NCBI RefSeq assembly: GCF_000012305.1
Contig: NC_007204.1
Span: 2,480,001 to 2,544,000 of the forward strand
Reading direction: 5' to 3'
Length of the DNA: 64,000 bases
Source of the DNA: Psychrobacter arcticus 273-4
GTDB lineage: Bacteria; Pseudomonadota; Gammaproteobacteria; Pseudomonadales; Moraxellaceae
Below the pieces are notes generated by a model. It did not search any database and was not told where the DNA came from. It was given only the letters and a program-made list of their open reading frames with translations. Numbering within the stretch: the stretch's first letter is position 1; each line of letters starts with the position of its first letter. This document shows, piece by piece, positions 20,262 to 62,831 of the stretch. The position numbers were made by a program, and so were the translations under genes.

Positions 20262-20399
20262 TATAGTTGAAATGCTTTAAAGTCGCTACCGTATTGCTGG
20301 TGTAAATTTTTTGCAGCCTCTGTCTGCGTAGGCACAGCAAGCAAGAAAAATTTGCACCAGCAGTACGTGTTGTATCGATATTACTTTTCACCGACTATA
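20262..20399 (-). repeat. 140-bp palindromic element, copy A (reverse orientation)
   Basis: Begins TATAGTTGAAA and ends ACCGACTATA; 138 bp. It is the reverse of the other near-full copies. It contains the stem arms CTGGTGTAAATTTTTT / AAAAATTTGCACCAG around the conserved core (rc of TTGCTTGCTGTGCCTACG). It lies between the znuA stop and the atpI promoter. Confidence 0.92.
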
Positions 20400-20459
20400 T
20401 ATCCCCGTCTTTAGCGACTCTTAACTAACGGTTTCAATCATTTATTTTAATGATCCCAT

Positions 20460-21395
20460 TTATGATATGCATTGGCGGATTTGCTGCGCCATCGTCTGCC
20501 ACCCACTGACGAAGTCTTTACTATTGCTCATATCTTCTGCCTGAACGGTATCTTGAACCGGTTGTAGCTTGGCAAGTAAACCCTTGGCAGGACTGCTTGG
20601 ACTGACCAGACACATTTTATTAGCGGGACGCTGCTCGTTAAGCGAGCGTAATTGGCTGGCTTTTGGCGCAAGATCATGGTCAGTACTTAAGCTACCAATG
20701 AGTTTTAGGTTGGCGCTGCTTTCCATATATTGATAAGCATCATGATAAGCCCAATATGGTAAAGGTTTTTGTGTGGTTTTCTGACTAATCGCTGCCACTG
20801 CATTATCCATACGTTGGGCAAATTTTCGAGCATTGGCATGATAAAGCTGTTTATATTGCGGATTGGCATGGCTATGAATGACAGCAAGGGCACGCGTAAT
20901 AGCTTTGGCATTGTTAGGATCCAGCCAAATATGGGGATCTAACGTACCAGCGAGGGGCATACCTTTTATATCACGCAGAGGATGACGATTAAAAGCATCA
21001 AATTCGAATAAGGCAATGGCGTTGGGTGCTGTATTTAGGCTTGCTGCCAAGTTATTTTCTAGCGGCTCACCAAACCAAACTACAAATGTGCTTTCTTGAA
21101 TCGCTTTAATATCGCCAGGGCTGATACTACCATGGTGTCCAATCTCTCCTGCTTGTAATAATTGCTTGGCAGGCGCCGCACCTTCTGTCACCGCTTGACT
21201 TAACAAAAATAGTGGATAATTACTCACACTCACGGTTGCGGCTTGCGCAGACAATGCCAAAAATCCTAACATCAATAGGCTAATCATTAAGAAGTGCTGC
21301 CGTATTAAGTGATGCATCTTATGCAAAAGATTCTTTTTTTGAACGTGTAAGTTTTTATCTAAAGTCGTTGTAGCATTATGAGCATTGGTAATCAT
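20460..21395 (-). CDS. znuA: Zinc ABC transporter, periplasmic binding protein
   Basis: 311 residues. A cationic N-terminal region of about 36 residues and a hydrophobic segment (MISLLMLGFLALSAQAA) form an export signal, with cleavage probably after AQA. The cluster A-1 metal-binding fold has the expected ligands: His in GEIGHHGSISP, His in LDPHIWLDP and His in YWAYHDAYQY. The His/Asp-rich loop common in enterobacterial ZnuA is absent. It is divergent from zur-znuC-znuB with a Zur box 61 bp before its start. The ATG at 21395 has AGGA 11 nt upstream; starts at internal Mets (for example 21317) lack a ribosome site. Confidence 0.9.
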   Translation of the reverse strand: MITNAHNATTTLDKNLHVQKKNLLHKMHHLIRQHFLMISLLMLGFLALSAQAATVSVSNYPLFLLSQAVTEGAAPAKQLLQAGEIGHHGSISPGDIKAIQESTFVVWFGEPLENNLAASLNTAPNAIALFEFDAFNRHPLRDIKGMPLAGTLDPHIWLDPNNAKAITRALAVIHSHANPQYKQLYHANARKFAQRMDNAVAAISQKTTQKPLPYWAYHDAYQYMESSANLKLIGSLSTDHDLAPKASQLRSLNEQRPANKMCLVSPSSPAKGLLAKLQPVQDTVQAEDMSNSKDFVSGWQTMAQQIRQCIS

Positions 21396-21455
21396 GCGTT
21401 ATTGATCCTGTTAAGTCATTAAACTGCGATATCTTAATATGTTCTACATATAAAT

Positions 21456-21478
21456 ATTATGTTATACTATAACATAAT
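21456..21478. promoter_or_regulatory. Zur box, perfect 23-bp palindrome
   Basis: ATTATGTTATA-C-TATAACATAAT. The core TGTTATA-n-TATAACA equals the known gammaproteobacterial Zur operator. It lies in the znuA/zur divergent region, 61 bp before the znuA ATG and 165 bp before the zur ATG, so it can repress both sides when zinc is plentiful. Confidence 0.93.
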
Positions 21479-21642
21479 TAAATCACACTTTTTATTTTAC
21501 ATCTTGGCTGCTCTATTTTTACTAATCGCAGTCGCACCTCTTTAATAACGTATCGATTTTATTTTGAACTACCTATAGGTGGAATTTAATTCAAAACGAA
21601 TGCTTGCTGCATTTATTGAAAGTGTTTTTGGGAGTTTGTGCT

Positions 21643-22158
21643 ATGCTGACCACTTCACCGAACTGTGAGCATGCTCATGACGTGCAAGATTTTACGCCAC
21701 AGGATGTGACCAAGCGTCTAGAAGCAGCAAAAGAGCAGTCTCGTATGCGCGGTGTGCGTTTTACGCCCTTACGACAGCAGATATATCTGCTGGTATTGCA
21801 AGCCAATAAACCAGTGGGCGCTTATGATTTAATCACCCAATTACAGCAAATGCGACTCTTGGATAATGAGCTTGCTGGCGCAAAAAATGTCGCGCCGCCA
21901 ACCGTCTATCGAAGTTTGGAGTTTTTATTAAGTGAAGGTTTGATTCATCAACTGACCTCTATTAATGCCTATGTACCTTGCTGTCATCCGCGTGCTCATC
22001 ATACGGCAGCCTTCTTAATTTGTGAACAGTGTCAGCGCGTACAAGAATGTAGCAGTTTACCTGTGCAAGAGATGATGAGCTTTGCTGAAGAAGACATTGG
22101 CTTTACTGTTGCTCGTAGTGTGATTGAGCTGAGCGGTCGTTGCCAAGATTGTCAGTAA
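21643..22158 (+). CDS. zur: Zinc uptake regulator, Fur family
   Basis: 171 residues. A winged-helix domain (MRGVRFTPLRQQIYLLVL; PPTVYRSLEFLLSEGLIHQL) precedes a dimerisation and metal domain with PCCHPRAHHTAAFLICEQCQRV and a terminal CQDC. The two CxxC pairs form the structural zinc site. The identity as Zur rather than Fur rests on these sequences, on the genomic context with znuABC and on the adjacent Zur box. The ATG at 21643 has GGGAG upstream; the open frame reaching 21604 uses a TTG. Confidence 0.93.
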   Translation: MLTTSPNCEHAHDVQDFTPQDVTKRLEAAKEQSRMRGVRFTPLRQQIYLLVLQANKPVGAYDLITQLQQMRLLDNELAGAKNVAPPTVYRSLEFLLSEGLIHQLTSINAYVPCCHPRAHHTAAFLICEQCQRVQECSSLPVQEMMSFAEEDIGFTVARSVIELSGRCQDCQ

Positions 22159-22282
22159 GGAATGTTGTTTTGATGGTTATAAATGATGAGCATTTACTAT
22201 AGTCAGTTCAATATCAGAGAGAGGCACGAAATAGCTCCCCTATTTAACCTATCTTCCTTTTCCCAATACACGCGGTCATCTG

Positions 22283-23014
22283 ATGAATAATACAAGTAAG
22301 CTGCTGAACTTAAGCAATGTCAGCTACTATATTGGTCAACAACGCTTACTATCTCATATTAATATCGACATTGCTGTCAATGAGACGATCAGCGTTATCG
22401 GTCCCAATGGTGCCGGCAAGTCAACGCTGGTGAAGCTGATTTTGGGACTGATTGAACCGACATCTGGACAAGTCACGCCTTCTGCGCCCTTACAGATAGG
22501 CTATGTGCCGCAGCGGTTTTCTGTACCACCAATACTGCCATTACGTGTCAGCGACCTTTTAGCGCAAGCCCATAAAAAACGCCTTATGGCTGAGCAGCGG
22601 CAGTTTATATTTGATAAATTATCATTGACCCATTTACTCTCGCGGCAGATGCTGCACCTCTCTGGCGGTGAAACCCAACGGGTATTATTGGCACGGGCTT
22701 TATTAGATAAGCCCAATTTATTGATTTTAGATGAGCCGATGCAAGGTCTTGATCCTGAAACGGAGGTTTGGTTGTATCAATTTATTGATGAACTACCGGA
22801 ATTTTTACGCTGTGCTATGTTAGTGGTTTCGCATGATTTGCATTGGGTCATGAAAGGCAGTCGACGGGTGATTTGCTTGAATAAGCATATTTGCTGTGAA
22901 GGTCAGCCAAGCGAGCTTGCTATCAGCAGTGAGTTTCAAAAGCTATTCGGTCATCATTATGAGCAGCCGTACGTCCATCAGCCGCATGCCTGCGAGCATC
23001 ACGCGCCAAGCTAG
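22283..23014 (+). CDS. znuC: Zinc ABC transporter, ATPase
   Basis: 243 residues with Walker A GPNGAGKST (residue about 40), Q-loop (YVPQRF), ABC signature LSGGETQR, Walker B LLILDEP and the H-loop (VVSHDLHWVM). The histidine-rich tail (HHYEQPYVHQPHACEHHAPS) is typical of ZnuC. It follows zur by 124 bp. Confidence 0.96.
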   Translation: MNNTSKLLNLSNVSYYIGQQRLLSHINIDIAVNETISVIGPNGAGKSTLVKLILGLIEPTSGQVTPSAPLQIGYVPQRFSVPPILPLRVSDLLAQAHKKRLMAEQRQFIFDKLSLTHLLSRQMLHLSGGETQRVLLARALLDKPNLLILDEPMQGLDPETEVWLYQFIDELPEFLRCAMLVVSHDLHWVMKGSRRVICLNKHICCEGQPSELAISSEFQKLFGHHYEQPYVHQPHACEHHAPS

Positions 23015-23089
23015 ATATAATAAAAATCAACTGGCTTGAAGAAAAAACTGCCTTACGACCTTTTTTATAAAAATTTACGGATATGTATT

Positions 23090-23923
23090 ATGACTGCTTG
23101 GTTAGCCATTATTGCCCCTGCTTGGATTGCCGGTAGTATTTTAGCATTACTTTCAGCGCCTTTGGGATGCTTGGTGTTATGGCGACGTATGGCTTTTTTT
23201 GCGGATGCGTTGGCGCATGGGACATTGCTAGGTGTGGCACTGGCAGTATGGTGGCAGCTACCAATGGGTATCGGTATTGCGTTGGTCAACGTGATGGTGG
23301 TATTAGGATTGGTATTCATTGATGATGAGCGTTTACCTGTCGATGCGGTATTGGCAGTGGTTGCCGTATCATTGCTGTGTTTAGGATTATTGACTTTAAC
23401 CCAGCTAACCGATCAGCAAGCAAACGTCTTGGGGTTCTTGTTTGGCAACCTGCTTGAGCTTGATTGGGCAGATTTGCCCTTAATTGCTGGCAGCGTACTG
23501 GTCGGATTGGCATTACTTATTTATATATGGCCGGCGCAAATCAAACTGGCAACCCACGAAGCTTTGGCACGCATACAGGGTATTAATCCCACGCGCCAAC
23601 GCCTGTTTTTTATGGGCGTATTAGCAGGGTTTTGTGCGATTGCTTTGCAAGCGGTTGGTAGCTTATTAATCAGTGGCTTATTGGTATTACCAGCTCTTAC
23701 TGCCCGTCTGTGGTCAGCGTCACCAAAACAAATGGTAATTATGGCGCTATGTATAGCACAACTTGGTGTGACACTCGGTGTATGGGGCAGTATTTGGCTC
23801 GATATCCAAACGGGACTCTCTATCGTTTTAGTCTTAGCCAGTTTGTTTTTTACCGCTTTAATTGTCTCAAAACTGACCACATCGACATCCATATTGGCAA
23901 AGTTTTGGTCGTCACGCCGTTGA
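23090..23923 (+). CDS. znuB: Zinc ABC transporter, membrane permease
   Basis: 277 residues and about eight membrane helices, with LWRRMAFFADALAHGTLLGVALA (residues about 26-48), the signature ABC-3 family segment in which histidine lines the metal path. I start it at the ATG at 23090; the frame is open from a TTG at 23036. It is the last gene of zur-znuC-znuB. Confidence 0.95.
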   Translation: MTAWLAIIAPAWIAGSILALLSAPLGCLVLWRRMAFFADALAHGTLLGVALAVWWQLPMGIGIALVNVMVVLGLVFIDDERLPVDAVLAVVAVSLLCLGLLTLTQLTDQQANVLGFLFGNLLELDWADLPLIAGSVLVGLALLIYIWPAQIKLATHEALARIQGINPTRQRLFFMGVLAGFCAIALQAVGSLLISGLLVLPALTARLWSASPKQMVIMALCIAQLGVTLGVWGSIWLDIQTGLSIVLVLASLFFTALIVSKLTTSTSILAKFWSSRR

Positions 23924-24045
23924 AAGGTAAATAGATGTAAATAATCGGTTATTTTGAATTGCCATTACTCACCTGTCATGACGCATTTAATCATTAAAAT
24001 ATCTTAAAAATGTTCATTGTTTTTCTGCGACAAAGGAAAAAATCA

Positions 24046-24885
24046 ATGCCAAGCTATCCTGTCAGTACCGTCAACACGCCCGACGGACAGGTGAATGTAT
24101 TGCAAATCACTGATTTGCATTTATCATCACATGTGCCGGCTTCTGATGATGAAACCAGTAGCGAAGTCGCTGTTTGTCAATACAGTTTTGAGGCCATTAT
24201 CAAGCAAGCATTGAGCAAAGAGATACGCTGTGATTTGATTGTCGTGACAGGCGATTTGGTCAATAAAGTAGAGCCTGCTATTTATGACCATATTTTTACA
24301 GTATTGCAGGATACGGGCATTCCTTTTGCCTGTATTGCTGGTAATCATGATGTGACTGATGAAACAGGCGAGGATTTACCTTTTTACCAACGGACACTGA
24401 TTACAAGGGCTGCTGACCCACGTCTGCTTAGCCGTCATCTGATTGAATCTGAGCATTGGCAGTTGCTTTTACTCGATTCATCTATTACTGGCAAGGTAGA
24501 AGGCGAGATTACGGCGACCGACATTGATTGGGTACGTGAGCAGCTAGCATCTTGTACTAAACCCGCGCTCATTGCGCTCCATCATCATGTATTGCCTGTA
24601 GATTCTGAATGGATTGATAGCCACATGGCAAAAAATGCAGAGGAATTTTGGCAGCACATTTTACCTTTTGAAAATCTAAGGGTGATTATCAATGGACATA
24701 CCCATCAAGAGCAAACACGCCATCATCAAGGCGTTACTGTATATAGCACCCCTTCTACCTGCTATCAATTTAAGCCGTTTGAAGACAATTTTGCCTACGA
24801 TAAAAAAGTGCGACCAGGGTATCGTTGGTTGCAATTAGCCAACAATGGAAAGGTTGCAAGCTGGGTTGAAAGACTAGATACTTGA
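24046..24885 (+). CDS. cpdA: 3',5'-cyclic AMP phosphodiesterase
   Basis: 279 residues, calcineurin-like metallophosphoesterase. The full motif set is visible: DLHL (residue about 26), TGDLVNK, GNHDVTD, LHHH and GHTH, binding two metal ions. The match is to class III CpdA, which hydrolyses cAMP and tunes CRP signalling. AAGGA precedes the ATG at 24046; the longer frame from 24010 is unlikely. The gene stands alone. Confidence 0.88.
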   Translation: MPSYPVSTVNTPDGQVNVLQITDLHLSSHVPASDDETSSEVAVCQYSFEAIIKQALSKEIRCDLIVVTGDLVNKVEPAIYDHIFTVLQDTGIPFACIAGNHDVTDETGEDLPFYQRTLITRAADPRLLSRHLIESEHWQLLLLDSSITGKVEGEITATDIDWVREQLASCTKPALIALHHHVLPVDSEWIDSHMAKNAEEFWQHILPFENLRVIINGHTHQEQTRHHQGVTVYSTPSTCYQFKPFEDNFAYDKKVRPGYRWLQLANNGKVASWVERLDT

Positions 24886-25849: not shown

Positions 25850-25879
25850 GCCTTCTTAAACAAGTATAAAAATAAACAC

Positions 25880-26071: not shown

Positions 26072-27079
26072 ATGCCAATCACTCGTACTCTACCCCAACC
26101 TATCGGTCGTTTTGCGCCTTCACCCACAGGTGAGCTTCATCTTGGCTCGTTAACGACAGCACTTGCCAGCTTTTGTCATATCAAGTCTATCGATGGCAAA
26201 TGGTTATTACGTATTGAAGATACTGACACCGAACGTTGTGACAGACAGTTTACAGAGCAGATTTTGATAGATTTAGAGGCACTCGGTCTCAACTGGGATG
26301 ATGATGTTATTTTTCAGTCTGAGCGTATTGATATTTATAATGATTATATCTCATCAGTACTGCGTCCTCTGACCTACAGCTGTCAGTGCTCACGTAAGCG
26401 TTTGGAGCGCTATTGGACACAGCAAGAACAACAGACAGCGCTTACCGATGCAAACATATCAACTGATTTGTCCGTTTCCGTTAACAATGACAAACGTGTA
26501 GATAGCCACCTACTGCCAAATAGGCAGCGCTATCCACGTTTTTGTATTAAGGCGAATTTAAGTCCTACACAAAATAAACTGCGTATACAGCTGCCAGATT
26601 ATTGTATTGGATTTAACGATGGTATTCAGGGTATACAGTGGGATAATCCGCAGCAAACCTTAGGAGACATGGTGGCTCGGCGTCAAGATGGCATGATTAA
26701 TTATATTTTGGCGGCAAGTCTTGATGATGGATTACAACAAGTCACTCATATCATGCGCGGTTTGGACATCTTACCGATGACTACTGCTCAAATCAGTATC
26801 ATGCAAGCGGCACGCTTACCCACTATCAGTCATTGGTATCATCTGCCCTTGATATGCAATCCAGATGGTCAAAAACTCTCCAAGCAAAATCTTGCGCAGC
26901 CTATCGACACTCGCCATCCAAGTAAATTACTTGCGTATGCGTTAAAGCTATTAGGCCAACTACCAGTCGATCATGACACACCGGAGCGTATGCTCAACCA
27001 AGCGATTTCTCAATGGGATAACGCACCATTACAAGGTAGACAGTCTTTAAATATGGCCACTATAGTCGGTGAAAAGTAA
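26072..27079 (+). CDS. gluQ: Glutamyl-Q tRNA(Asp) synthetase
   Basis: 335 residues. Class I synthetase catalytic core with the HIGH-type motif [12 protein letters not shown] and a KLSKQN (KMSKS-like) loop, without an anticodon-binding domain. GluQ attaches glutamate to queuosine in tRNA-Asp. The zinc site shows CxC (YSCQCS) but its YxxxC partner (YPRFC) comes about 60 residues later, after an insert; the usual spacing is short. The last codons (IVGEK and stop) lie inside repeat copy B, which starts at 27061. Full-length synthetase gltX is a separate gene at 50575. Confidence 0.92.
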
Positions 27080-27203
27080 TATCGATACAACACAACACGT
27101 ACTGCTGGTGCAAATTTTTCTTGCTTGCTGTGCCTACGCAGACAGAGGCTGCAAAAAATTTACACCAGTAGTACTGTAGCGACTTTAAAGTATTTCAACT
27201 ATA
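27061..27203 (+). repeat. 140-bp palindromic element, copy B, overlapping the gluQ 3' end
   Basis: 143 bp from TATAGTCGGTGAAAAG to TTTCAACTATA. Stem arms: GTACTGCTGGTGCAAATTTT and AAATTTACACCAGTAGTAC. It lies between convergent gluQ and ftsW. Its first 19 bases are coding (end of gluQ, including the TAA stop). Confidence 0.95.
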
Positions 27204-27208
27204 TTTAA

Positions 27209-27240: not shown

Positions 27241-27256
27241 AAATCAAAAATACCAA

Positions 27257-28453: not shown

Positions 28454-28807
28454 AATTTTATATACACTAGCAAACGAAAAAACACGGCGTTTATGCAACG
28501 CCACCGTTTAAAAATTAAAAATAGATATTGTTAAATAGACTTGATTAAACAGCTGCTCATAAGCAGCACAGTGTCGACGAGCACAGCTTCAATCAATATT
28601 CATCAAGATATTCATTGTCTCTGCTACAGCCTGTAATCCCTGACCGTAACGCTCATCTTCGACAGTAGCAGCAATTTATAAGCAAAACAATCATTTATCC
28701 AGAAAATGCTTGTCGTGTTTACGATTATAAAACGCAGGTCACATAATGTAATAACAAGGCGCTTTATACGACTGAATATGATGACATAGACGCTTAGATT
28801 TTGCCGT
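28454..28807. other. Gap between murD and ftsW
   Basis: 354 bp with no gene, hairpin or repeat that I can support. In most dcw clusters murD and ftsW are nearly contiguous, so ftsW may have its own promoter here. Confidence 0.4.
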
Positions 28808-30238
28808 TTATGATAGTGCCTGTTGAGACACGGTATTCAACTGTTTAACGAGCTGGCTAAAGCGCTCGCCCCGCGCGACAAACCCATTAAACTGATCGAA
28901 GCTTGCACAAGCAGGTGACAATAATACCGCCTGTACTTGCGACAAACTACTTGCCGTTACTTGCTCAATCATCGAAAAAGCATTTTCTAAGGTCTGACAT
29001 TGATGCAGGCTAACCTCATCGCTGAGACCCGCTGCGCGTAAATGCTGTTCAATCTGCTGACTGTCCTCGCCAATAAAGAGCACTTGACTCACATATTGAT
29101 TGATAAAAGGCGAGAGTTCACCGAACTGCTGAGCTTTACCTTGACCGCCCAATATTAATAATAACTTACCGTCTTTGGGTGCATAGACCGCGCCCAAACC
29201 TTCAACAGCCGCCATGGTTGAGCCAATATTGGTGCCTTTAGAATCATTAAAGTAATCAATGCCAGCAATTGTGGCGACATATTGGCAGCGATGCTCAAGA
29301 CCTGCAAACTGCTGCAAGGTGCTAAGCATACTCTCAAGCGGCAAACCAGCAAGCTCGCCCAATGCCAATGCTGCTTGGGCATTAAGTAAGTTATGACGAC
29401 CTTTTATCTTTAGTTTATCTGCTGATATGAGACGCTCTGTACCACGTGCCAAATAAGTCTGCCCTGCTGCATCCGTAATAAGCCCATAGTGCCCCTTGTT
29501 AGGAGCATGAATACCAGTGCTCAGTCGCGGCAAACTATCTGACACCAATGGTCGGGTCAACGCATCTTCACGATTAATCACTACCGATTTGGCACCTTGG
29601 AAGATACGATGTTTGGCTTGGTGATAGCCGAGCATATCACCATGACGGTCTAAATGATCAGGCGACATATTGAGGACTGTTGCGACCTGCGCCCCTAAGT
29701 TGGTCACGGTTTCTAACTGAAAGCTAGATAATTCTATAACTGCTAGCTCCATTTTATCATTACTCAAAAGGCTCAGCGCTGGCACGCCAATATTACCGCC
29801 TACGCCAACATTGATACCAGCATCTGCCGCCATTTGTCCAACCAGCGTGGTCACAGTGCTTTTTGCATTTGAGCCAGTAATCGCAACAATTGGCACCGTA
29901 CAAGCTTCACAAAATAGCTGAATATCGCTGACCACTGGAATATTTGCCGCACGCGCCGCTGCAATCGCATCATTATCTAGAGAGATACCAGGACTGATTA
30001 TAATCCGTGCCGCTTGTTGTAATAACTCTGCATCGATCGCACCAAACTGTCTGATATCAATAGTAGCAGGCAGTTTATCTGCTAATGCGGGATTCTCCTG
30101 ATTGTCAGTGACGGCAACTTGGTAGCCCTGCTCAGCCAAATAATGTGCGACCGATAATCCCGACTGCCCCAAACCGACCACGACTTGTAAGCCACTGCCT
30201 TTATGAAGTAAGGTTTCTGTTGCGGTGCTAGCGGTCAT
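28808..30238 (-). CDS. murD: UDP-N-acetylmuramoylalanine--D-glutamate ligase
   Basis: 476 residues. The Rossmann N-terminal domain (VVGLGQSGLSVAHYL) and central Mur ligase ATP site are present. The P-loop reads ITGSNAKSTVTTLVG, with Ala in place of the common Gly before Lys. GGNIGVPAL, the MSPDHLDRH region and NDSKGTNIGSTMAAVEGL are the expected MurD motifs. MurD adds D-Glu to UDP-MurNAc-L-Ala in the cytoplasm. AAAGGA lies before the ATG. The gene is 12 kb away from the rest of the mur genes. Confidence 0.96.
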   Translation of the reverse strand: MTASTATETLLHKGSGLQVVVGLGQSGLSVAHYLAEQGYQVAVTDNQENPALADKLPATIDIRQFGAIDAELLQQAARIIISPGISLDNDAIAAARAANIPVVSDIQLFCEACTVPIVAITGSNAKSTVTTLVGQMAADAGINVGVGGNIGVPALSLLSNDKMELAVIELSSFQLETVTNLGAQVATVLNMSPDHLDRHGDMLGYHQAKHRIFQGAKSVVINREDALTRPLVSDSLPRLSTGIHAPNKGHYGLITDAAGQTYLARGTERLISADKLKIKGRHNLLNAQAALALGELAGLPLESMLSTLQQFAGLEHRCQYVATIAGIDYFNDSKGTNIGSTMAAVEGLGAVYAPKDGKLLLILGGQGKAQQFGELSPFINQYVSQVLFIGEDSQQIEQHLRAAGLSDEVSLHQCQTLENAFSMIEQVTASSLSQVQAVLLSPACASFDQFNGFVARGERFSQLVKQLNTVSQQALS

Positions 30239-36459: not shown

Positions 36460-36602
36460 TATAGTCGGTGAAAAGTAATATCGATACAACACAACACGTA
36501 CTACTGGTGCAAATTTTTCTTGCTTGCTGTGCCTACGCAGACAGAGGCTGCAAAAAATTTACACCAGCAATACTGTAGCGACTTTAAAGTATTTCAACTA
36601 TA
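36460..36602 (+). repeat. 140-bp palindromic element, copy C
   Basis: 143 bp from TATAGTCGGTGAAAAG to TTTCAACTATA, nearly identical to copy B. It lies between the nuclease stop and the start of the 87-residue gene, so it is probably in that gene's leader. Confidence 0.95.
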
Positions 36603-36654: not shown

Positions 36655-37563
36655 TTATGTTTGCAATTGTGCCATGAGCCATTCAAAGATTGCTACTACA
36701 AATAACATCCAAGTAGGCTCTTCTACCTCTGTGGTTGGTATATCTATCGCTTCGCCAGCCTTTAGCGGTAAATCCAGAGCTTGTGCTTTAGTCTTTGCAT
36801 CAAGTACCGGCAAGACGTCAATACCAATTTTAGACGTCAATTCGTCAATACTAATGATTTCTATACGCTCAGATTCATCGTTTGGCGCATAGTAAACACC
36901 GGCTTGATTGATCGCTGGGATATAAACGGCTTTAAAGAAATGACTGGGCACCAGTACCCGCCCTGCTAATTGTTTGGCTTTTTTATCGGTAAACGCGACC
37001 CCTGTGACGGTATAAACCTCACCATATTGCTGCGTTAAATAGCGGGTCGCTGATTCAATATTACGCCAAATATAGCGGTTATTACGTGGTGATTGCGGGG
37101 CTATATTAGCGAGGCTAAAACTATCATACTGCTGACTGCGATTGGCCATGTCACCATTGGGCGCTAAATGTCCACGGTCATAACCTGAGCCTGAATAGTC
37201 AGACAGCTTGGCACGCATAGACTGTGGTAATCGGCTTTCTTCATGAAAACTGTCTTCGCGGTCTATTTGTTTGGCCTGCTGTAAACGTTTACGATCCAGA
37301 TATTCTGCTGACCATAATGGCGTACGTGATACACCAGAATACATGACAGCAAAACCGTCCATACATAGTGCTTGAGTATTATTACTCAACTTCGTATTGC
37401 TAAATTCAGGATACACGCCGCCATAAAATGATTGGCTGCATTGTGTGAAATCATCAGCATGTGCCGCTGATATGCTCAGAATACTAGCGGTTACTACCAT
37501 TATGATGGTGTTTTTCAGATTAAATCGATGTTTAAAAATACTTCTCATGCAACTTTCAACCAT
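36655..37563 (-). CDS. Secreted DNA/RNA non-specific endonuclease with a hydrophobic C-terminus
   Basis: 302 residues. The N-terminal hydrophobic segment (NTIIMVVTASILSISAAHA) is a signal peptide. The catalytic beta-beta-alpha-metal motif is intact: YDRGHLAPNGDM supplies the catalytic His and NIAPQ...NRYIWRNIE supplies the Mg2+-binding Asn and Glu. The last 18 residues (MLFVVAIFEWLMAQLQT) are hydrophobic and could tether the enzyme to a membrane. It likely degrades extracellular or periplasmic nucleic acid. Start at 37563 or the ATG five codons later. Monocistronic, with repeat copy C right after its stop. Confidence 0.88.
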   Translation of the reverse strand: MVESCMRSIFKHRFNLKNTIIMVVTASILSISAAHADDFTQCSQSFYGGVYPEFSNTKLSNNTQALCMDGFAVMYSGVSRTPLWSAEYLDRKRLQQAKQIDREDSFHEESRLPQSMRAKLSDYSGSGYDRGHLAPNGDMANRSQQYDSFSLANIAPQSPRNNRYIWRNIESATRYLTQQYGEVYTVTGVAFTDKKAKQLAGRVLVPSHFFKAVYIPAINQAGVYYAPNDESERIEIISIDELTSKIGIDVLPVLDAKTKAQALDLPLKAGEAIDIPTTEVEEPTWMLFVVAIFEWLMAQLQT

Positions 37564-40578: not shown

Positions 40579-40639
40579 GCCCATGTTTGATAAGTTACAA
40601 CTTAATGGAGTCAGTCATAAATAACAGAAATACAAATAT

Positions 40640-40750
40640 TATAGCGCACTACTGGGGTTAATTTTTCTTGCTTGCTGTGCCTATGCAGACAGAGGCTGCG
40701 AATAATTAATCCCAGTAGCGCTGTACTCTTTTAAAAAGGGGTCAACTGTA
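40640..40750 (+). repeat. 140-bp palindromic element, copy D, diverged
   Basis: It keeps the core (TTGCTTGCTGTGCCTATG, CAGACAGAGGCTGC) and the right end (GTCAACTGTA). The left terminal part is lost or changed. Both stem arms differ from other copies but still pair: ACTGGGGTTAATT with AATTAATCCCAGT. It lies between convergent cls and rlmA. Confidence 0.82.
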
Positions 40751-54555: not shown

Positions 54556-54577
54556 TCACACCAAGTCTAATAAACCA

Positions 54578-57397
54578 TTACGCCGCGTTTTTACTGTCCG
54601 CAGCCAGTTGACGTAGCACATAATGCAATACACCACCATGACGCACGTATTCACGCTCTTTTGGCGTCTGTAGCATGACATTGACATCAAAGCTCTCAGT
54701 TGAGCCATCGGCACGTGTAGCAGTGACTTTTGCGGTCTTGCTTTCACCATTATCTAAACCAGTGATGCTAAGCACCTCAGAACCATCTAGGTTATAAGTC
54801 GCAGCATTTTCGCCTGCTTTAAAGGTCAATGGCAAGACACCCATACCAACTAAGTTTGAGCGGTGAATACGCTCAAATGAGCTGGTCAATACCGCTTTTA
54901 CCCCAAGGAGAATCGTTCCCTTCGCTGCCCAATCACGACTAGAGCCAGAGCCATATTCTGCACCGCCAAGTACCACTAGCGGACGCTTGTCTTCTTTATA
55001 CTTCATCGCTGCATCATAGATGGCCATTTCTTCGCCGTCTTGTAATGTGGCACTATCGCCGTTGAAGTAATAGGTATAGCCGCCCTCTTTGCCACCCATC
55101 ATGGTATTTTTGATACGGATATTGGCAAAAGTACCGCGCGTCATAACTGCATCATTACCACGGCGTGAACCATAGCTGTTAAAGTCGGCTTCCATCACAC
55201 CGCGCTCTTGCAAGTATTTGCCCGCAGGAGAGTCAGCATCAATATTACCAGCTGGCGAGATATGATCGGTGGTGATTGAATCACCGAATAGACCTAAAAT
55301 ACGCGCACCTTCAATATCAGGGATACCTTCTGGCTCCATAGTCATGCCATCAAAGAACGGTGGGTTTTTGATATAAGTAGACTCTTCACTCCATGGATAA
55401 AGCTGGCTATCGGCTGAACTAATGGCATTCCACGCTGCACTACCGTCAAACACTTCACCGTAGTTTTTACGGAACATATCCGCGTCGATATTATTGGCAA
55501 TCAGCTCGTTAATCTCATCCGACGTTGGCCAGATGTCTTTTAGATAGACATCATTGCCCTCTTGATCCTGACCTAATGGATGGGTCGTCAAGTCAATATC
55601 GACGGTACCTGCCAGCGCATAAGCAACCACTAATGGTGGCGACGCCAAGTAGCTCGCTTTGACATGCGAGTGGATACGACCTTCAAAGTTACGGTTACCT
55701 GACAGTACAGCTGCGGCAACCAAATCACCTTCTTCGATAGCGCCTTCGATTGCCCCTAATAACGGACCTGAGTTACCGATACAAGTGGTACAACCATAGC
55801 CAACTAGATAGAAGCCAATTTTCTCTAGCTCATCCATCAACTTGGCTTTTTCAAGGTAATCAGTCACAACTTTTGAGCCTGGAGCCAGTGACGTCTTGAC
55901 CCATGGTTTAGCGGTCAGACCTTTTGCAGCGGCTTTTTTGGCAACCAGACCTGCGCCAATCATGACTGCTGGGTTTGAGGTGTTGGTACAAGAAGTAATC
56001 GCCGCGATAACGACAGAACCATCACGTAAACTGTACTCTTCGTCTTCGATTTTGACCGTGCAATAAGTACTGCCTTCCGCACAGAAAGGATTGGGTTTTG
56101 CCGCGAGCGTTTTTGCTTGCTCTTGCTCACCGCCTTCTTGGTCAAAGCGTACTTTACCTTCGACTTCCGACTTCCGATCTTTGGTCATCGCCGTCAAGGT
56201 TTCACCAAATTTTTTGTGCATATCAGATAAATTGATACGCTGTTGTGGCAAGTTCGGACCAGCAAGTGCTGGCTGTACCGATGATAAATCTAGTTCCAAC
56301 TTACTTGAGTAAGTCGCCGCTGGGGTATCTGCATCGTGCCACAAGCCTTGCGCCTTGGCATACTTTTCAACTAGCTCAATTTGTGCTTCATCACGACCTG
56401 ATAGACGTAGATAATCAATCGCCATTTGGTCAATCGGGAAAATACCGCACGTTGCACCATATTCTGGTGACATATTGGCAATCGTTGCACGGTCAGCGAG
56501 TGGCATACTATGCAAGCCTTCGCCATAGAATTCGACGAACTTACCAACCACGCCATGCGCACGTAGCATTTCAACCACGCGTAATACTAAGTCCGTCGCG
56601 GTGACACCTTCGGTTAACTTACCTTTTAGCTCAAAACCAACCACTTGTGGAATCAGCATCGAGGACGGCTGACCGAGCATTGCCGCTTCTGCTTCAATAC
56701 CGCCCACACCCCAACCAAGCACGCCAATACCATTAATCATAGTGGTATGACTGTCAGTACCAAATACCGTGTCAGGATAAGCCGTCAGCTCGACCCCATC
56801 ACCATTATCGACATCAGCAGCCATTACCACGCGCGCCAAATACTCTAAGTTAACCTGATGCACGATACCGGTTGCTGGTGGTACGACCACGAAGTTTTTA
56901 AACGCATTACGACCCCAATGCAAGAACTCATAACGCTCGTTGTTACGTTTAAATTCAATTTTCTCGTTTAGGTCTAATGCATCTTCGCGACCATAGGCGT
57001 CAACCTGTACAGAGTGGTCAACCACCAATTCACTTGGAATAAACGGGTTAATCTGCTCAGCGTTACCGCCAAGCTCAACCACTGCATCACGCATCGCTGC
57101 CAAATCGACTACCGACGGCACACCAGTAAAATCTTGCAAGACAACACGGGCTGGCATAAAGGCGATTTCTTTTGACGCTTCTGCGCCCGCGTCCCAATTG
57201 GCGACCGCCTCGATATGGTTTTTGCCGACAGACTGGCCGTCATCTTCATTACGCAATAAGTTCTCTAAAACGACTTTCATGCAAAATGGCAGCTTGCTAA
57301 TGTTTTCGTGAGTTTCGGTTAATTTTGGCAAGCTGTAATAGGCGTATTCCTTGCCATCGACCGCAATGGTATCTTTTACATTAAAAATATCACTCAT
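54578..57397 (-). CDS. acnA: Aconitate hydratase A
   Basis: 939 residues. The three 4Fe-4S cysteines are in AITSCTNTSNP and GCTTCIGNSG; the swivel domain has GSSRDWAAKGTILLGVKAV. It converts citrate to isocitrate in the TCA cycle. An insert with KSEVEGKVRFDQEGGEQEQ makes it longer than the E. coli enzyme. The start is the ATG at 57397, which has AAGGAAG before it; the frame extends to 57433. Repeat copy E lies 77 bp upstream. Confidence 0.97.
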   Translation of the reverse strand: MSDIFNVKDTIAVDGKEYAYYSLPKLTETHENISKLPFCMKVVLENLLRNEDDGQSVGKNHIEAVANWDAGAEASKEIAFMPARVVLQDFTGVPSVVDLAAMRDAVVELGGNAEQINPFIPSELVVDHSVQVDAYGREDALDLNEKIEFKRNNERYEFLHWGRNAFKNFVVVPPATGIVHQVNLEYLARVVMAADVDNGDGVELTAYPDTVFGTDSHTTMINGIGVLGWGVGGIEAEAAMLGQPSSMLIPQVVGFELKGKLTEGVTATDLVLRVVEMLRAHGVVGKFVEFYGEGLHSMPLADRATIANMSPEYGATCGIFPIDQMAIDYLRLSGRDEAQIELVEKYAKAQGLWHDADTPAATYSSKLELDLSSVQPALAGPNLPQQRINLSDMHKKFGETLTAMTKDRKSEVEGKVRFDQEGGEQEQAKTLAAKPNPFCAEGSTYCTVKIEDEEYSLRDGSVVIAAITSCTNTSNPAVMIGAGLVAKKAAAKGLTAKPWVKTSLAPGSKVVTDYLEKAKLMDELEKIGFYLVGYGCTTCIGNSGPLLGAIEGAIEEGDLVAAAVLSGNRNFEGRIHSHVKASYLASPPLVVAYALAGTVDIDLTTHPLGQDQEGNDVYLKDIWPTSDEINELIANNIDADMFRKNYGEVFDGSAAWNAISSADSQLYPWSEESTYIKNPPFFDGMTMEPEGIPDIEGARILGLFGDSITTDHISPAGNIDADSPAGKYLQERGVMEADFNSYGSRRGNDAVMTRGTFANIRIKNTMMGGKEGGYTYYFNGDSATLQDGEEMAIYDAAMKYKEDKRPLVVLGGAEYGSGSSRDWAAKGTILLGVKAVLTSSFERIHRSNLVGMGVLPLTFKAGENAATYNLDGSEVLSITGLDNGESKTAKVTATRADGSTESFDVNVMLQTPKEREYVRHGGVLHYVLRQLAADSKNAA

Positions 57398-57473
57398 GGT
57401 AGCTTCCTTATCGTTGTTATAGATCCTTGACATAAATCGTTATAAATTTATGCTGATAATTGATGGCTAAATA

Positions 57474-57609
57474 TAGTCGGTGAAAAGTAATATCGATACA
57501 ACACGTATTGCTGGTGCAAATTTTTCTTGCTTGCTGTGCCTACGCAGACAGAGGCTACAAAAAATTTACACCAGCAATACGGTAGCGACTTTAAAGTATT
57601 TCAACTATA
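57474..57609 (+). repeat. 140-bp palindromic element, copy E
   Basis: 136 bp from TATAGTCGGTGAAAAG to TTTCAACTATA. The short CAACA tandem near the left arm has fewer copies than in B and C. It lies upstream of acnA, in the acnA/DUF3025 gap. Confidence 0.95.
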
Positions 57610-57778: not shown

Positions 57779-58792
57779 TTATGTTTTATGGCGGCGACCA
57801 CCGCGAAACACTTGGCTATCGTCATAAAAGCTAAGATTGGCATTTTCAGCCCAAAAGTGTGGCACACCCAAAATAGGTAACGGAGACAGTTTGCGCGGTG
57901 TCAAATCCGGTTGTGATAATAGCGCCTCCATATAATCAGCAACCTTTTGATCTAAATAACAGATACGCTCAGCTAGCGATAAGGCAAAAAATTCTGGGGT
58001 CACATAGATAACGATACTATGAGCGCATAATGCCTTACGTGGTTGTAGTAGCTTTTCTAGCAGGGCATGACCAAAAATATAAACAGCAGCCTGAGAGTCG
58101 CCATCCTGTTCTTTTGGCTTGTCCCACTTTCCACGTGGCTCTACCAAACTCCTTTGCCAATCAAAATCAACCAACGCTTCACCGATACTAGGCTCTGCTG
58201 TCACCAAAATCGCCCCATTCTCATCAAATAGCGTGATGGTATCGCGGACACGCCCGCGACTGGCACCAATACCTTGCTGATCAATCTCAAGCATATGATA
58301 GTAATTGAGCAAGGCTTTGGTTTTGGGGAAAGTGAGCCAAATACTGCCGTTAAACAAGTCATGCAGATTATCGCGTGTCGGAATATTACCAGTCGTGGCG
58401 ATAAAACTCTCATACGCCTCGCCTTCTGGCAACGCATCTTGCGAGACAAACTTTAAGCTTTGGGCTTGGTTGTGCAGCGCCGGTTTGGTTTGCGGCCATG
58501 GTTGTTGTAATCCATCAATCTGCTTCTGTAACCCTGCATTTAAAACCTTAGCAATAATGTCAGGTGTATTTTTGATTTTATCTGGTTGAGTAGAGTCATC
58601 TCTTAAGACACTAAGCTGGGTGATGGCTTTACTGATATAGCTTAACTGGTTTAAATGACACAGCCACGGTGCTTGCCAGTCAATGACTGTGAAGCTGTTA
58701 TCAAGCCTGCTTTCGCATATAGACTGCCCGTTAAAAGCAGTATCAGAAGGAGCATCGAAATCGGGTTTGGCGGGTAAATCAGTGGCGGTCAT
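57779..58792 (-). CDS. DUF3025 family protein
   Basis: 337 residues. The segment DNLHDLFNGSIWLTFPKTKALLNYYH followed by RVRDTITLFDENGAILV is the hallmark I recall for DUF3025, split here over residues 140-220. No catalytic motif is recognisable; proteobacterial members are unstudied. Family call good, function unknown. It is in tandem with acnA, 380 bp away, and divergent from the YdjM-like gene. Confidence 0.82.
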   Translation of the reverse strand: MTATDLPAKPDFDAPSDTAFNGQSICESRLDNSFTVIDWQAPWLCHLNQLSYISKAITQLSVLRDDSTQPDKIKNTPDIIAKVLNAGLQKQIDGLQQPWPQTKPALHNQAQSLKFVSQDALPEGEAYESFIATTGNIPTRDNLHDLFNGSIWLTFPKTKALLNYYHMLEIDQQGIGASRGRVRDTITLFDENGAILVTAEPSIGEALVDFDWQRSLVEPRGKWDKPKEQDGDSQAAVYIFGHALLEKLLQPRKALCAHSIVIYVTPEFFALSLAERICYLDQKVADYMEALLSQPDLTPRKLSPLPILGVPHFWAENANLSFYDDSQVFRGGRRHKT

Positions 58793-58907
58793 ATTGACTA
58801 TCTCTATTAGACGACTGGTTTGTCTATGGTATCATGGAGCGCTTTTTTACGGCTAAACGAGCCGCTCGAAATAGATGTTTTCGCGCGCTATTTATCAATG
58901 AGTTTTT

Positions 58908-59624
58908 ATGGCAAATTTTAACACCCACTTAAATGTTGCATTCATGGTCAGTGGTACGATGAGTCTAACGGTTTACAAAGCGGGATTGATTAATGATTTT
59001 GGGTTTTTGATGTGTGTGGCGCTTGGTACCATCGGTGGGTTGCTGCCTGATTTGGATTCTGATAACTCGACACCGATTAAGCTTGGTTTTAATATCACCT
59101 CATTTATCTTCGCTTTTGGGCTGGTGATGCATTGGCGTAGTGAGCTGAGTTTATTGGCGCTCATTGCCTTATGGCTAGCGGGCTACGGCTCTATGCGTTA
59201 TGTGGTGTTTTCTATTTTTACTAATATGACGGTGCATCGCGGTGTCATCCATTCTGTACCCTATATGGCAATACTGGGGCTTGGGCTAACCTATTTCAGC
59301 TATGATGTTCTGCATCTGCCATTAGCCGTCAGTTGGTTTTATGGTTTGTTTTTATTCGGTGGTGCGCTTGTGCATCTGACATTGGACGAGCTATATAGTG
59401 TGAATTTGATGGGCATGAAAATGAAGCGCTCATCGGGCACGGCTATGAAGTTTTATCAGCATAAAGATAAATGGTGGTATCTGTTACTGTATGTCATTCT
59501 TGCGATTTTGGTTTATTTTGCGCCACCGTTTGATGCCTTTTGGCAGCAGCTGCGTGATCCAGCGCCGTGGGCTCAGCTTAAACTCGGGCTCTGGCCAGAA
59601 ATGATAAAAAATTGGCTAAACTGA
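58908..59624 (+). CDS. YdjM/DUF457 family membrane-bound metal-dependent hydrolase
   Basis: 238 residues with about seven membrane helices. The motifs HLNVAFMVSG, GGLLPDLDSDNSTP, VHRGVIHSVPYM and DELYSVNLMGMKMKRSSGT match the YdjM family, in which conserved His and Asp residues are thought to bind a metal. In E. coli, ydjM belongs to the LexA regulon. It is divergent from the DUF3025 gene. Confidence 0.88.
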   Translation: MANFNTHLNVAFMVSGTMSLTVYKAGLINDFGFLMCVALGTIGGLLPDLDSDNSTPIKLGFNITSFIFAFGLVMHWRSELSLLALIALWLAGYGSMRYVVFSIFTNMTVHRGVIHSVPYMAILGLGLTYFSYDVLHLPLAVSWFYGLFLFGGALVHLTLDELYSVNLMGMKMKRSSGTAMKFYQHKDKWWYLLLYVILAILVYFAPPFDAFWQQLRDPAPWAQLKLGLWPEMIKNWLN

Positions 59625-59667
59625 AACGTCTAGAGCCACCAAAAACGAATAACCACTCGAGTAAACC

Positions 59668-60219
59668 ATGTTATTTTCCATACAGACCTGCCCCTGCCAA
59701 ATCAATCCTGCATTAAACGCTGTAAGCACACCGCTACTTTATCAGGATTGCTGTCAGCCTTATCATGATGGCCTTTATAATCAAGAAGTTGAAGATAGTG
59801 ATGCTATAAGGGCAGACACTGCTGAGCATCTAATGCGCACGCGCTATAGTGCCTTTGTTTTGGTAAAACCAGAATATATCGTCAAGACCACCTTGCCCGC
59901 GCAGCAAGATTTGCTTGATATTAAGGCGATTGAGAATTGGGCAAAAGAGACAGATTGGGCAGGATTAGAAGTCGTCGCGCATACGCCAAAGCTTAGTAAA
60001 CGCCACGCTCAGGTTGAGTTTAAGGCCTACTTCAAGACGCCTGATGGATTACAGGCGCATCATGAATTATCTACCTTTGTAAAAATAAAAAACAAAGCTA
60101 ATAGTGATGCGAGTTGGTACTTTTTAGATCCGACTGTTTCAATGTCTGTCACACAGAAACAGCCGTGTATTTGTGGGTCAGGAGAGAAATTTAAACGCTG
60201 TTGCGGCATGTATATTTAA
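59668..60219 (+). CDS. YchJ-like protein with SEC-C zinc motifs at both ends
   Basis: 183 residues. The N-terminal TCPCQINPA...QDCCQPYHDG and C-terminal KQPCICGSGEKFKRCCGMY are SEC-C type zinc-binding motifs; the middle (RTRYSAFVLVKPEYIVKT; AQVEFKAYFK; WYFLDPT) is the NTF2-like YchJ domain. No biochemical role is established. It follows the YdjM-like gene by 43 bp. Confidence 0.9.
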   Translation: MLFSIQTCPCQINPALNAVSTPLLYQDCCQPYHDGLYNQEVEDSDAIRADTAEHLMRTRYSAFVLVKPEYIVKTTLPAQQDLLDIKAIENWAKETDWAGLEVVAHTPKLSKRHAQVEFKAYFKTPDGLQAHHELSTFVKIKNKANSDASWYFLDPTVSMSVTQKQPCICGSGEKFKRCCGMYI

Positions 60220-60242
60220 CCCATATTAACTATCCGCTAACC

Positions 60243-61166
60243 CTAAACACTCGCCCCAACGGCTCGCGCAATCGCAACCCCTTCCTCAATCGTCAAAAAC
60301 TTACGCTGGCTTGGGCTGTCTTTATAAATGACATCCCCATCTTGAAAGATTAAGCACTCATTGACTGCCAGCTGCTGCCATTTTTCATTTTCAGTCAATG
60401 GCACAGTCACTAGAATAGTCACTTTATCTTTATCAGTGGTCACATCACCAAAGTTAATTGCCAAATCATCATCTGCTAATTTCGCTTCACCAAATGGCGC
60501 TTTTCGCGTGAGATAAAACAATAAGCTGCCGGCATAAGCCAATTGCCATTGACCATTCGATATTAAGCAATTGAACAAACCATTAGCCGATAAATAACGA
60601 CATTGGGTGGTCAAGAAGTTAAACAGCGTTTGGTCATCAGGACGGGTTTTAAAGCTGCTTTTAAGACGGTTCACTAGATAGCAAAACGCCATTTCAGAGT
60701 CGGTCGAACCCACTGGCTGGCAATGTGAGGCATTACCATTGTCTTGCAAGCGCTGACAGCGTTTAATAAATTCGCTATTCATCTGCCCATTATGCGCGAA
60801 TACCCACTGCTCACCCCATACTTCACGGACAAAAGGATGGGTATTCGCCAAGCAATTTTGCCCTTGGGTAGCTTTACGAATATGAGCAATAACATTGATA
60901 GCTTTAATAGGATAATTGTTAACCAAATCAGCAACTGGTGATAAATGGCTTGGGCGATTGTCATGGAACAGTCGCAAACCAGTCGAGGCATTGTCCGACT
61001 TGTCACTATTAGCGCTGTCACTATTAGCACAGTCGCTACGCTCAAAAAACGCAATGCCAAAGCCATCTTCGTGACTATCGGTCATGCCGCCGCGACGACG
61101 AAACCCTGCAAAGCTAAAACCAATATCGGTTGGGATATTACAGTTCATACCTAAAAGTTGACACAT
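60243..61166 (-). CDS. YafJ-family class II glutamine amidotransferase
   Basis: 307 residues. Catalytic Cys2 immediately after the initiator (MCQLLGMNC), with MTDSHEDGFGIAFFE, NYPIKAINVIAHIRKATQG and FAHNGQMNSEF in the expected Ntn-hydrolase order. The acceptor substrate is unknown. Its ATG directly follows the stop of the DUF2007 gene, so the two are translated together. Confidence 0.92.
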   Translation of the reverse strand: MCQLLGMNCNIPTDIGFSFAGFRRRGGMTDSHEDGFGIAFFERSDCANSDSANSDKSDNASTGLRLFHDNRPSHLSPVADLVNNYPIKAINVIAHIRKATQGQNCLANTHPFVREVWGEQWVFAHNGQMNSEFIKRCQRLQDNGNASHCQPVGSTDSEMAFCYLVNRLKSSFKTRPDDQTLFNFLTTQCRYLSANGLFNCLISNGQWQLAYAGSLLFYLTRKAPFGEAKLADDDLAINFGDVTTDKDKVTILVTVPLTENEKWQQLAVNECLIFQDGDVIYKDSPSQRKFLTIEEGVAIARAVGASV

Positions 61167-61427
61167 TTATAGAGTACCGCCGTTATCGTCGTCTGTTTCA
61201 GGCAAGCTTGCCGCGTCCGTATCGATACTATCCAAAATACGCTGAGCACGTACCAAATCGGTATCTTGCACCCATAGCACGATGCCAGAATTCATACCGG
61301 GCATCGCACTCAGCGGTTGTAGAGATACCGTAACACCATTGTTACGTAGCAAATTGGCATGTAGCTCACCTTGGATATTGGTATCGTAGCGTGCCAATTT
61401 GTGCCAGTTATCAACTTGATCGGTCAT
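61167..61427 (-). CDS. DUF2007-like small protein
   Basis: 86 residues. The sequence WHKLARYDTNIQGELHANLLRNNGV followed by LWVQDTDLVRAQRILDSI is the DUF2007 layout: a beta-alpha-beta fold resembling PII-type signalling modules. Acidic tail. The stop codon abuts the YafJ ATG. Confidence 0.85.
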   Translation of the reverse strand: MTDQVDNWHKLARYDTNIQGELHANLLRNNGVTVSLQPLSAMPGMNSGIVLWVQDTDLVRAQRILDSIDTDAASLPETDDDNGGTL

Positions 61428-61480
61428 GAGATCACCTTATAGTTTATAGTTTGGTACCAGAATAAATGAATAAGCAATGC

Positions 61481-62656
61481 TTACGACAATTGATCGACCG
61501 TGTATTCTTTGATTGCGAACTCACTGCTATTGCTTAACTTATCACGCGCTTGTTCAGCTTGAGTAATATTGCTAAAAACACCCACTATTTGAATGTCTTT
61601 CTGAGACGCTAGCAGGTTATCTAGCAATACAAATACTGTATTTTTCGCTTTTTCAACGTGTGACCAATGATAAGCGGCTAGACGCTTCATCAAGTCAGGG
61701 TTTTTGACCATGATGTTATCGCCAGTACGCCCTTCGGTACGGTTATAATGAATGACGTTGAGACGTAGTAGCCAAAAGATAACGGCCGCTTTTGCCAGCA
61801 TAACCGGTAAGGCACGTTTTTCATCTGCGCCAAGCGAGCGTTTAGACTCATAGCCTTGTAAAAACGCTGCCATTTTACTGCGATCAAAATTCACTGACTC
61901 ACCTTGCTCAGCATCGCCCCACGTGGTACAAAAGTCGTTAATAGTAATAGCAATATCCATTACATAATGCTCAACGCTGACTTCGGTAAAGTCCAATAGA
62001 CCTGTCAGAGACTCTTCGCCTTTTTGGCTATTATTTAACGATAAGTTCCATAAAGTATTATCAGCAAACATATCTAAATGACATAAGCCTTTTGGCAAGG
62101 TTGCAAGCGGTAAATCTGTGTAAGACTGCCAAATATCACTCATCAACTTGGCTTCATCAGCTGGCATAAACTGCCTTTCACGGTCACGCACATCGCTCCA
62201 TGGGTATAACGGCACGCCGTATTGTTCGCTTGGCTGTAATGCTTGCAAAGTCTCATGGAGCATTGCTAAAGCGGTGCCAATCTCATGACACATCGCTTGC
62301 GTGGTCTGCTGTGGATGCGAGCCTGCCAAACATGGTACCAATGTAATGGCTTTATTATCATAACGTATGACATAGCATTTTTCTGCGCTATCAACCAATG
62401 ATAACGGCGCCGCTACCGGTAATTTACCATCTAATTGATTGAGGATAACCGCCATTTTTTCGATGTCTTCCAGTGGACGCTCTTCAAATAGCGTAAACAC
62501 ATAAGAGTGCGCGCCATCTACATCATCAGTCGTCTGAATAAACCAGTTAGAGTTTTTGATACCTTGGGTAATTGGAATGGCACACGCGAATGACACGCCA
62601 AAACGTTGGCAAAAGGCAGAAAATTGGTCATCGGTTAACTGGGTATAGACGGACAT
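61481..62656 (-). CDS. thrB: Homoserine kinase, type II (choline kinase-like)
   Basis: 391 residues. APH/choline kinase fold with SVYTQLTDDQFSAFCQRFG, GIKNSNWFIQTT, catalytic loop CHLDMFADNTLW and metal site LLDFTEVSVEHYVMDIAI. The best family is ThrB type II, which phosphorylates L-homoserine in threonine synthesis; other sugar or choline kinases are possible. About 65 residues at the C-terminus (ending VGVFSNITQAEQARDKLSNS...) go beyond the usual length and look like a small beta-alpha-beta domain. Repeat copy F lies 35 bp upstream. Confidence 0.85.
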   Translation of the reverse strand: MSVYTQLTDDQFSAFCQRFGVSFACAIPITQGIKNSNWFIQTTDDVDGAHSYVFTLFEERPLEDIEKMAVILNQLDGKLPVAAPLSLVDSAEKCYVIRYDNKAITLVPCLAGSHPQQTTQAMCHEIGTALAMLHETLQALQPSEQYGVPLYPWSDVRDRERQFMPADEAKLMSDIWQSYTDLPLATLPKGLCHLDMFADNTLWNLSLNNSQKGEESLTGLLDFTEVSVEHYVMDIAITINDFCTTWGDAEQGESVNFDRSKMAAFLQGYESKRSLGADEKRALPVMLAKAAVIFWLLRLNVIHYNRTEGRTGDNIMVKNPDLMKRLAAYHWSHVEKAKNTVFVLLDNLLASQKDIQIVGVFSNITQAEQARDKLSNSSEFAIKEYTVDQLS

Positions 62657-62690
62657 GACATCTCACTTATGGCAATTAAAAAAAGGTATA

Positions 62691-62831
62691 TATAGTCGGT
62701 GAAAAGTAATATCGATACAACACCTACTACTACTGGTGCAAATTTTTCTTGCTTGCTGTGCCTACGCAGACAGAGGCTGCAAAAAAATTACACCAGCAAT
62801 ACGGTAGCGACTTTAAAGTATTTCAACTATA
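62691..62831 (+). repeat. 140-bp palindromic element, copy F
   Basis: 141 bp from TATAGTCGGTGAAAAG to TTTCAACTATA; the left arm has CTACTACTACTGG in place of GTACTGCTGG. It lies in the divergent gap between thrB and hisF, so it must coexist with both promoters or even carry one. Confidence 0.95.

Follow-up and report, generated by a model that had tools for sequence, protein, structure and literature searches.

How did a palindromic element of about 140 bp come to stand at six places in a 64,000-nucleotide stretch of the Psychrobacter arcticus 273-4 genome (contig NC_007204.1, positions 2,480,001 to 2,544,000; this whole stretch is referred to as the window), and why is its centre so much more constant than the arms that surround it? 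The evidence assembled here makes it highly probable that the copies are non-autonomous miniature inverted-repeat transposable elements (MITEs) that insert at TA, lie mostly between genes, and were likely mobilised in trans by Psychrobacter transposases of IS630 type, each with a conserved hairpin at its centre that is predicted to be kept as a single folded strand.

A search of the window for the 32-base core of the element, with three mismatches allowed, gave six matches, and 100 dinucleotide-shuffled windows gave none, confirming the six copies of the original prediction along with their common core, complementary arms and TATAGT/ACTATA ends. The extents it assigned to four near-full copies hold as well, and two others are amended: the copy placed at 57474 begins two bases earlier, at 57472, and the supposedly diverged copy at 40640-40750 is in fact an old full-length one (40606-40750) with terminal hexamers mutated to TACAGT and ACTCCA. 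Measured from TATAGT to ACTATA, the five near-full copies span 138-143 bp. The copies, their cores and one empty site are as follows, L090 being a locus titled P. glacincola ACAM483, its FtsW 98% identical.

20262..20399, plus strand: 138-bp element of subfamily A, flanked by genes for an ATP synthase I chain (19637-20107, minus) and for a ZnuA-family protein (20460-21395, minus); site empty in L090
27061..27203, minus strand: 143-bp element of subfamily A, with gluQRS and ftsW converging on it; site empty in L090
36460..36602, minus strand: 143-bp element of subfamily A, lying 3' of an Endonuclease_NS gene (36655-37563, minus); site empty in L090, with a single TA
40606..40750, minus strand: 145-bp element of subfamily C, the old full-length copy whose terminal hexamers are mutated, with a cardiolipin-synthase gene and an RlmA-like gene converging on it
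57472..57609, minus strand: element, subfamily A, 138 bp, 5' of an aconitase gene (54578-57433, minus)
62691..62831, minus strand: 141-bp element of subfamily A, flanked by genes for an APH-fold phosphotransferase-family protein (61481-62656, minus) and for histidine biosynthesis (62974-63768, plus)
20313..20344, plus strand: conserved hairpin tip (core), the 32-mer of one copy
27121-27152, 36520-36551, 40668-40699, 57527-57558 and 62749-62780, minus strand: core 32-mer with 0 or 1 mismatch
28754..28873, plus strand: empty site of the L090 copy (L090:9660-9803, subfamily C), between ftsW and murD; the rejoined flanks align gap-free across a single TA

That the element has moved is seen in reciprocal empty sites between the window and P. 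glacincola. An FtsW scan supplied 74 loci for orthologous comparison (73 titled Psychrobacter, one Moraxella), which cover the window sites 20262, 27061 and 36460, and all three of these are empty in L090. Across the relatives the core lies between both flanks in 0/59, 0/71 and 0/60 orthologous loci, respectively, contradicting the possibility, raised in the original prediction, that the same sites are occupied in all relatives; the flank-to-flank gap is -60 to 80 bases in 54/59, 50/71 and 59/60 of them and exceeds 100 bases in 0, 4 and 0. The cleanest TA insertion among the window copies is at 36460, where the empty allele of L090 has a single TA and the filled allele a TA on both sides, and this pair, like the filled/empty pair at L090:9660, conforms to a TA target with duplication of the TA. 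At 57472, no core follows the left flank in any of the eight relatives read, and in six of the eight this flank aligns to its last base, with TA coming next in five of the six; the right junction is not alignable. The FtsW loci (1.51 Mb) have copies of their own, five whose core has no more than four mismatches and one, more diverged, recovered when five were allowed, and four of the six sites are mostly empty elsewhere (54/66, 49/51, 62/71 and 35/37 loci).

The scale of this movement becomes apparent in the host genome, a single contig of 2,650,701 bp, in which a whole-genome search of the kind proposed in the original prediction recovered the core 343 times with three mismatches or fewer (169 on the forward and 174 on the reverse strand; none for a reversed-pattern control). 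This is one copy per 7.7 kb, or, counting each at 138 bp, about 1.8% of genome length. Three subfamilies share the core and the terminal hexamers and differ in between. Subfamily A accounts for 65 of 70 copies examined, the other five being either of another kind or without a recognised right end, and 57 of the 65 are 138 bp long, too short for a transposase gene. Mean identity within subfamily A is 98.1% (65 copies; gap-free columns; 694 of 2080 pairs compared), and five 400-base flanks align to L090 at 85-94%, a combination that suggests recent spread. A GTGTT unit beside the right arm is present one to three times, giving forms of 138, 143 and 148 bp (window copies 27061-27203 and 36460-36602; L052), and at G000:C1:1689694-1690110 two copies in the same orientation lie less than 420 bases apart. 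Scanned for promoters and terminators, the surroundings of one copy (20150-20550) gave no signal exceeding shuffles.

Beyond this genome, the core at up to three mismatches occurs in 68 of 348 genomes of the family, all Psychrobacter, and in none of the 15 other genera sampled. Within the genus, 68 of the 105 genomes searched carry it, at 0 to 343 copies each, the window's genome having the highest number, followed by 280, 143, 123 and 111. An order-wide search at up to one mismatch was positive in 4/293 genomes, again all in Psychrobacter; plasmid and phage collections, which may omit near relatives, held no match to the element, and viral contigs no exact match to the core. Among the matches listed from open-licence papers, the available parts of the texts contain no description of the element in Psychrobacter. 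A table in PMC12306157 gives 2,260 predicted repetitive extragenic palindromic sequences (REPs) for P. arcticus, the element not being described in the accessible part of that paper, and PMC4666352 and PMC3852290 nowhere mention Psychrobacter.

Flanks of the 65 subfamily A copies show a palindromic preference around the TA, with A at -3 in 39/65 (p 3e-5), T at +3 in 37/65 (p 2e-4) and T at -1 in 3/65 (p 5e-9), for an assumed background of 0.35; ANNTANNT is a Tc1/mariner target preference. With the element removed, 2/62 sites fall inside an open frame of at least 100 codons, compared with 1426/2000 random TA sites of the window, the targets being mostly intergenic. Convergent gene pairs are favoured (17/62) and divergent ones avoided by length (10/62), with p 2e-6 by gap length and 0.017 by gap number, in a test whose background was the window only, whose genes were simple open reading frame (ORF) calls, and from which 2/64 copies, lacking a gene on one side, were left out. 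The element does touch genes, in that the window copy 27061-27203 forms the end of gluQRS (26072-27079), providing its final codons and stop (C-terminus MATIVGEK*). By eye, the C-terminus of gluQRS in L090 reads MPTVE* where the window has MATIVGEK*.

From its ends, its target and the company it keeps, we infer a link of the element to IS630-type transposases. DDE_3 (IS630-type) matches occur in 84/105 Psychrobacter genomes. With the bounds of the insertion sequences (IS) set by TATAGT-like pairs 840-1010 bp apart, 26 of 30 IS loci from relatives could be oriented and used, and these 26 IS630 elements of the genus measure 889-921 bp and carry transposase reading frames; a search for any TA-ended pair placed TATAGT pairs among the best for nine loci. 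The IS-end profile comprised positions 7-34, following the hexamer, of 45 distinct ends starting with TATAGT (L186 and L204-L206 dropped, L175 and L178 contributing one end each, and L198 yielding no pair). Of the six subfamily ends (A, B and C) scored on this profile, five exceed their shuffles at p<=0.0003, and among 875 further TATAGT sites from the window and the FtsW loci just 2 to 8 score as high as these five. When 122 distinct element ends were compared with IS ends, the mean best match was 16.9/26 positions versus 11.9 for shuffled ends, with 105/122 at p<=0.05. The likeness thus extends over about 65% of positions 7-32 and is not identity. The original prediction proposed looking for a full-length IS with the same ends; similar ends do exist on Psychrobacter IS630 elements, but no full-length IS with the core was found. 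Copy L208 has ends of GTTATA type and most copies have the GATACA type, which means that one core is combined with two or more types of end. A by-eye inspection of L204, L346 and L347, all from the window's genome, found decayed IS630 fragments each keeping one IS-type end, of at least two types.

Two further properties were absent from the original prediction: the centre varies as little as the terminal hexamers, unlike the remainder of the ends, and changes in the stem are biased by strand. Both ends were recognisable in 91 copies, of which 74 were unique, and removal of near-duplicates and of seven with odd ends or inverted cores left an alignment of 47 rows. Majority identity among these is 93% in the core, 96% and 98% in the terminal hexamers, and 75% and 80% in the regions adjacent to the hexamers; the core is nearly invariant across subfamilies and species, and the arms differ between subfamilies. 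The stem covaries: pairing is preserved in 95.4% of cells, with changes on both sides in 14 of 24 pairs, and 0/500 shuffles reach any of these measures; slid stem alignments pair in only 26-53% of cells. Predicted folding of three consensus sequences gave z = -5.9, -4.4 and -4.3. Since a G-U pair on one strand is an A-C mismatch on the other, the direction of such changes tells which strand is folded. Parsimony counted 31 changes from Watson-Crick to G-U in the first set and 9 to A-C. A second set, 40 more copies drawn from five genomes, gave 39 and 18; it has no copy in common with the first, although G020 (L084) and probably G354 (L119) have another copy there. Both sets combined gave 65 versus 24 (p 2e-5, events on a tree of short sequences being not fully independent), and as a control the two classes of transitions numbered 84 versus 80 outside the hairpin and 20 versus 18 in unpaired columns within it. 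This excess of G-U, two to three times the frequency of A-C, is good though not conclusive evidence for folding of the core strand, as RNA or as single-stranded DNA, and suggests selection on one folded strand of either kind. By eye, the inner hairpin of two copies (L090:2811-2948 and L276:57-201) appears inverted with respect to the ends, a pattern compatible with a modular centre.

A plausible course of events is that an IS630-type transposase would bind the ends over some 30 bp, excise the element and paste it into a TA, leaving TA on both sides. In the window's genome the responsible transposases would since have decayed, in which case the copies there are probably immobile now. The hairpin tip may have been kept because one strand of it, as RNA or as single-stranded DNA, is recognised, either while the element propagates or by a host protein that binds RNA or DNA. 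Should the constant hairpin prove functional, it becomes testable whether the folded centre aids movement, is tolerated via RNA processing, or serves the host, and the range of 0 to 343 copies over 105 genomes offers a natural series for how such elements burst and stop.

A number of observations weigh against this account. On the side of the ends, the common hexamer is not independent evidence because the IS bounds were required to have TATAGT-like ends, and the lowest of the six on the profile is the left end of subfamily A (p=0.003), 25/875 other TATAGT sites scoring as high. The core at up to six mismatches is present in 0/32 IS intervals (four of which, L186 and L204-L206, are probably not true IS bounds), implying that the centre is not derived from a known IS; nor was the shared interior found that is expected of an internal deletion, a common though not the sole origin of MITEs. 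IS630 genes in the window's genome are fragments only, no IS630 was found in G033 with its 50 copies of the element, and copy number is uncorrelated with IS630 hits over 104 genomes (Spearman 0.07, p=0.49; G388 left out). As for the hairpin, the first set when realigned gave 30:12 instead of 31:9, internal and terminal branches have an equal G-U bias (24:8 versus 41:16) with no stronger bias on internal ones, and recent changes within subfamily A are very few (G-U 1, A-C 1). The core is oriented randomly relative to tandem gene pairs (17 versus 18), and this lack of bias argues against a cis role for each copy. Among the empty sites, the one at 27061 has only 50/71 relatives within the -60 to 80 base range and four beyond 100 bases, copies L090:2811 and L095:12589 are readable as empty in only 4/66 and 2/41 loci, and additional small indels distinguish sites 20262 and 27061 from the empty allele, making the junctions there less clean.

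Other explanations for the same features differ in how well they survive. It is conceivable, if rather doubtful, that what is inherited as a unit is the hairpin tip itself, a structured RNA (or single-stranded DNA) of Psychrobacter that is specific to one strand and would have reached hundreds of sites by repeatedly acquiring new IS630-type ends, so that a constant cargo travels with changing transposase-binding ends, the reverse of an ordinary MITE. Selection at each site on a dispersed structured-RNA or regulatory element that is not a selfish mobile element would account for the very conserved core, the strong covariation and the strand-biased evolution of the stem. We nonetheless consider it unlikely, as the sites tested are lineage-specific and empty in relatives, the orientation of the core to flanking genes is random, and an Rfam scan of the window at the gathering threshold returned three tRNAs only, with no Rfam match to the element. 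The missing correlation between copy number and IS630 number could also point to another TA-targeting transposase family (a subgroup of the IS5 family may serve as an example) whose MITE would have IS630-like ends by chance. Such a coincidence appears very unlikely given that the likeness to IS630 ends extends over about 30 bases in independent subfamilies, including L208 with its GTTATA-type ends. Still less probable are REPIN-type palindromes moved by a RAYT, a Y1 tyrosine transposase acting on single-stranded hairpins. These too are small intergenic palindromes with a strand-specific fold, and the window's genome has one Y1_Tnp match, in an ORF of 178 amino acids (L345:1110-1646). That gene, however, adjoins a different palindrome (L345:1683-1750) and its 3-kb stretch contains no core even with six mismatches allowed, on which grounds membership in the REPIN/RAYT system was rejected; moreover, G033 (50 copies) and G013 (66 copies) are without a Y1_Tnp match, and a TA target and IS630-like ends are not known as features of RAYT transposases. 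A true Correia (CREE/NEMIS) element transferred between genera, finally, has next to no probability, since the identical terminal hexamers TATAGT/ACTATA, the similar size, the mostly intergenic location and one comparison above shuffles are offset by 19 of 20 comparisons that are not above all shuffles, and membership, for which the Correia inverted repeat and core sequence would be required, was rejected on these comparisons.

With a MITE family moved by IS630-type transposases as the preferred reading, the element can be set beside systems already described. Correia elements of Neisseria (also NEMIS or CREE), going by the available portions of PMC5039591 and PMC2649163, have the same TATAGT...ACTATA ends, a length of 69-157 bp, a directional core and a commonly intergenic position, at about 120-250 copies; the same portions report that the hairpin of the Correia transcript is bound by RNase III, and PMC2649163 mentions a conserved core. 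Ten distinct Correia elements taken from viral contigs were aligned in both orientations to the 74 Psychrobacter copies with 60 shuffles, and 19 of the 20 comparisons did not exceed all 60, in keeping with the original prediction that the two differ in sequence. The sole comparison above shuffles matched L283, a 106-bp Correia element, to an end of L081, and an earlier, more lenient control, in which 25 of the 74 copies were shuffled against, had placed two of the 20 above shuffles. The ten Correia elements share a 13-base end, TATAGTGGATTAA, as their selection required, whereas the Psychrobacter ends beyond the hexamer vary by subfamily. Apart from the hexamers, the comparisons leave at most a faint likeness of the ends to those of Correia elements. 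IS630 insertion sequences of Psychrobacter itself resemble the element in their TATAGT-type ends and in similarity at positions 7-34, and differ from it in their length of 889-921 bp, their transposase reading frames and the absence of the core.

Three further families can be likened to the element by description only. ERIC/IRU elements of enterobacteria share TA at the termini, target duplication and a long stem-loop in different hosts (PMC2229807, as far as the text is available), and the Nezha MITE of cyanobacteria, with a proposed ISNpu3-like mover, was similarly attributed to an IS by common ends (PMC3049150, in its accessible part). The 107-bp RUP of Streptococcus pneumoniae, for which IS630-Spn1 is the proposed mover, is, in the accessible parts of PMC3049150 and PMC2229807, a MITE of less than 200 bp with IS630-like ends, target duplication and a folded transcript, differing in its genus and in a lower copy number (110 in one strain); judged on these features, it is the nearest known system in mechanism. 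Reciprocal empty sites, a palindromic TA target, IS630-like ends over positions 7-34 and confinement to one genus bear out the original view of an independent, TA-flanked, MITE-like family of IS630 type. The element is such a family, apparently set apart by its constant hairpin, and Psychrobacter has in it its own counterpart of the Correia and RUP elements.

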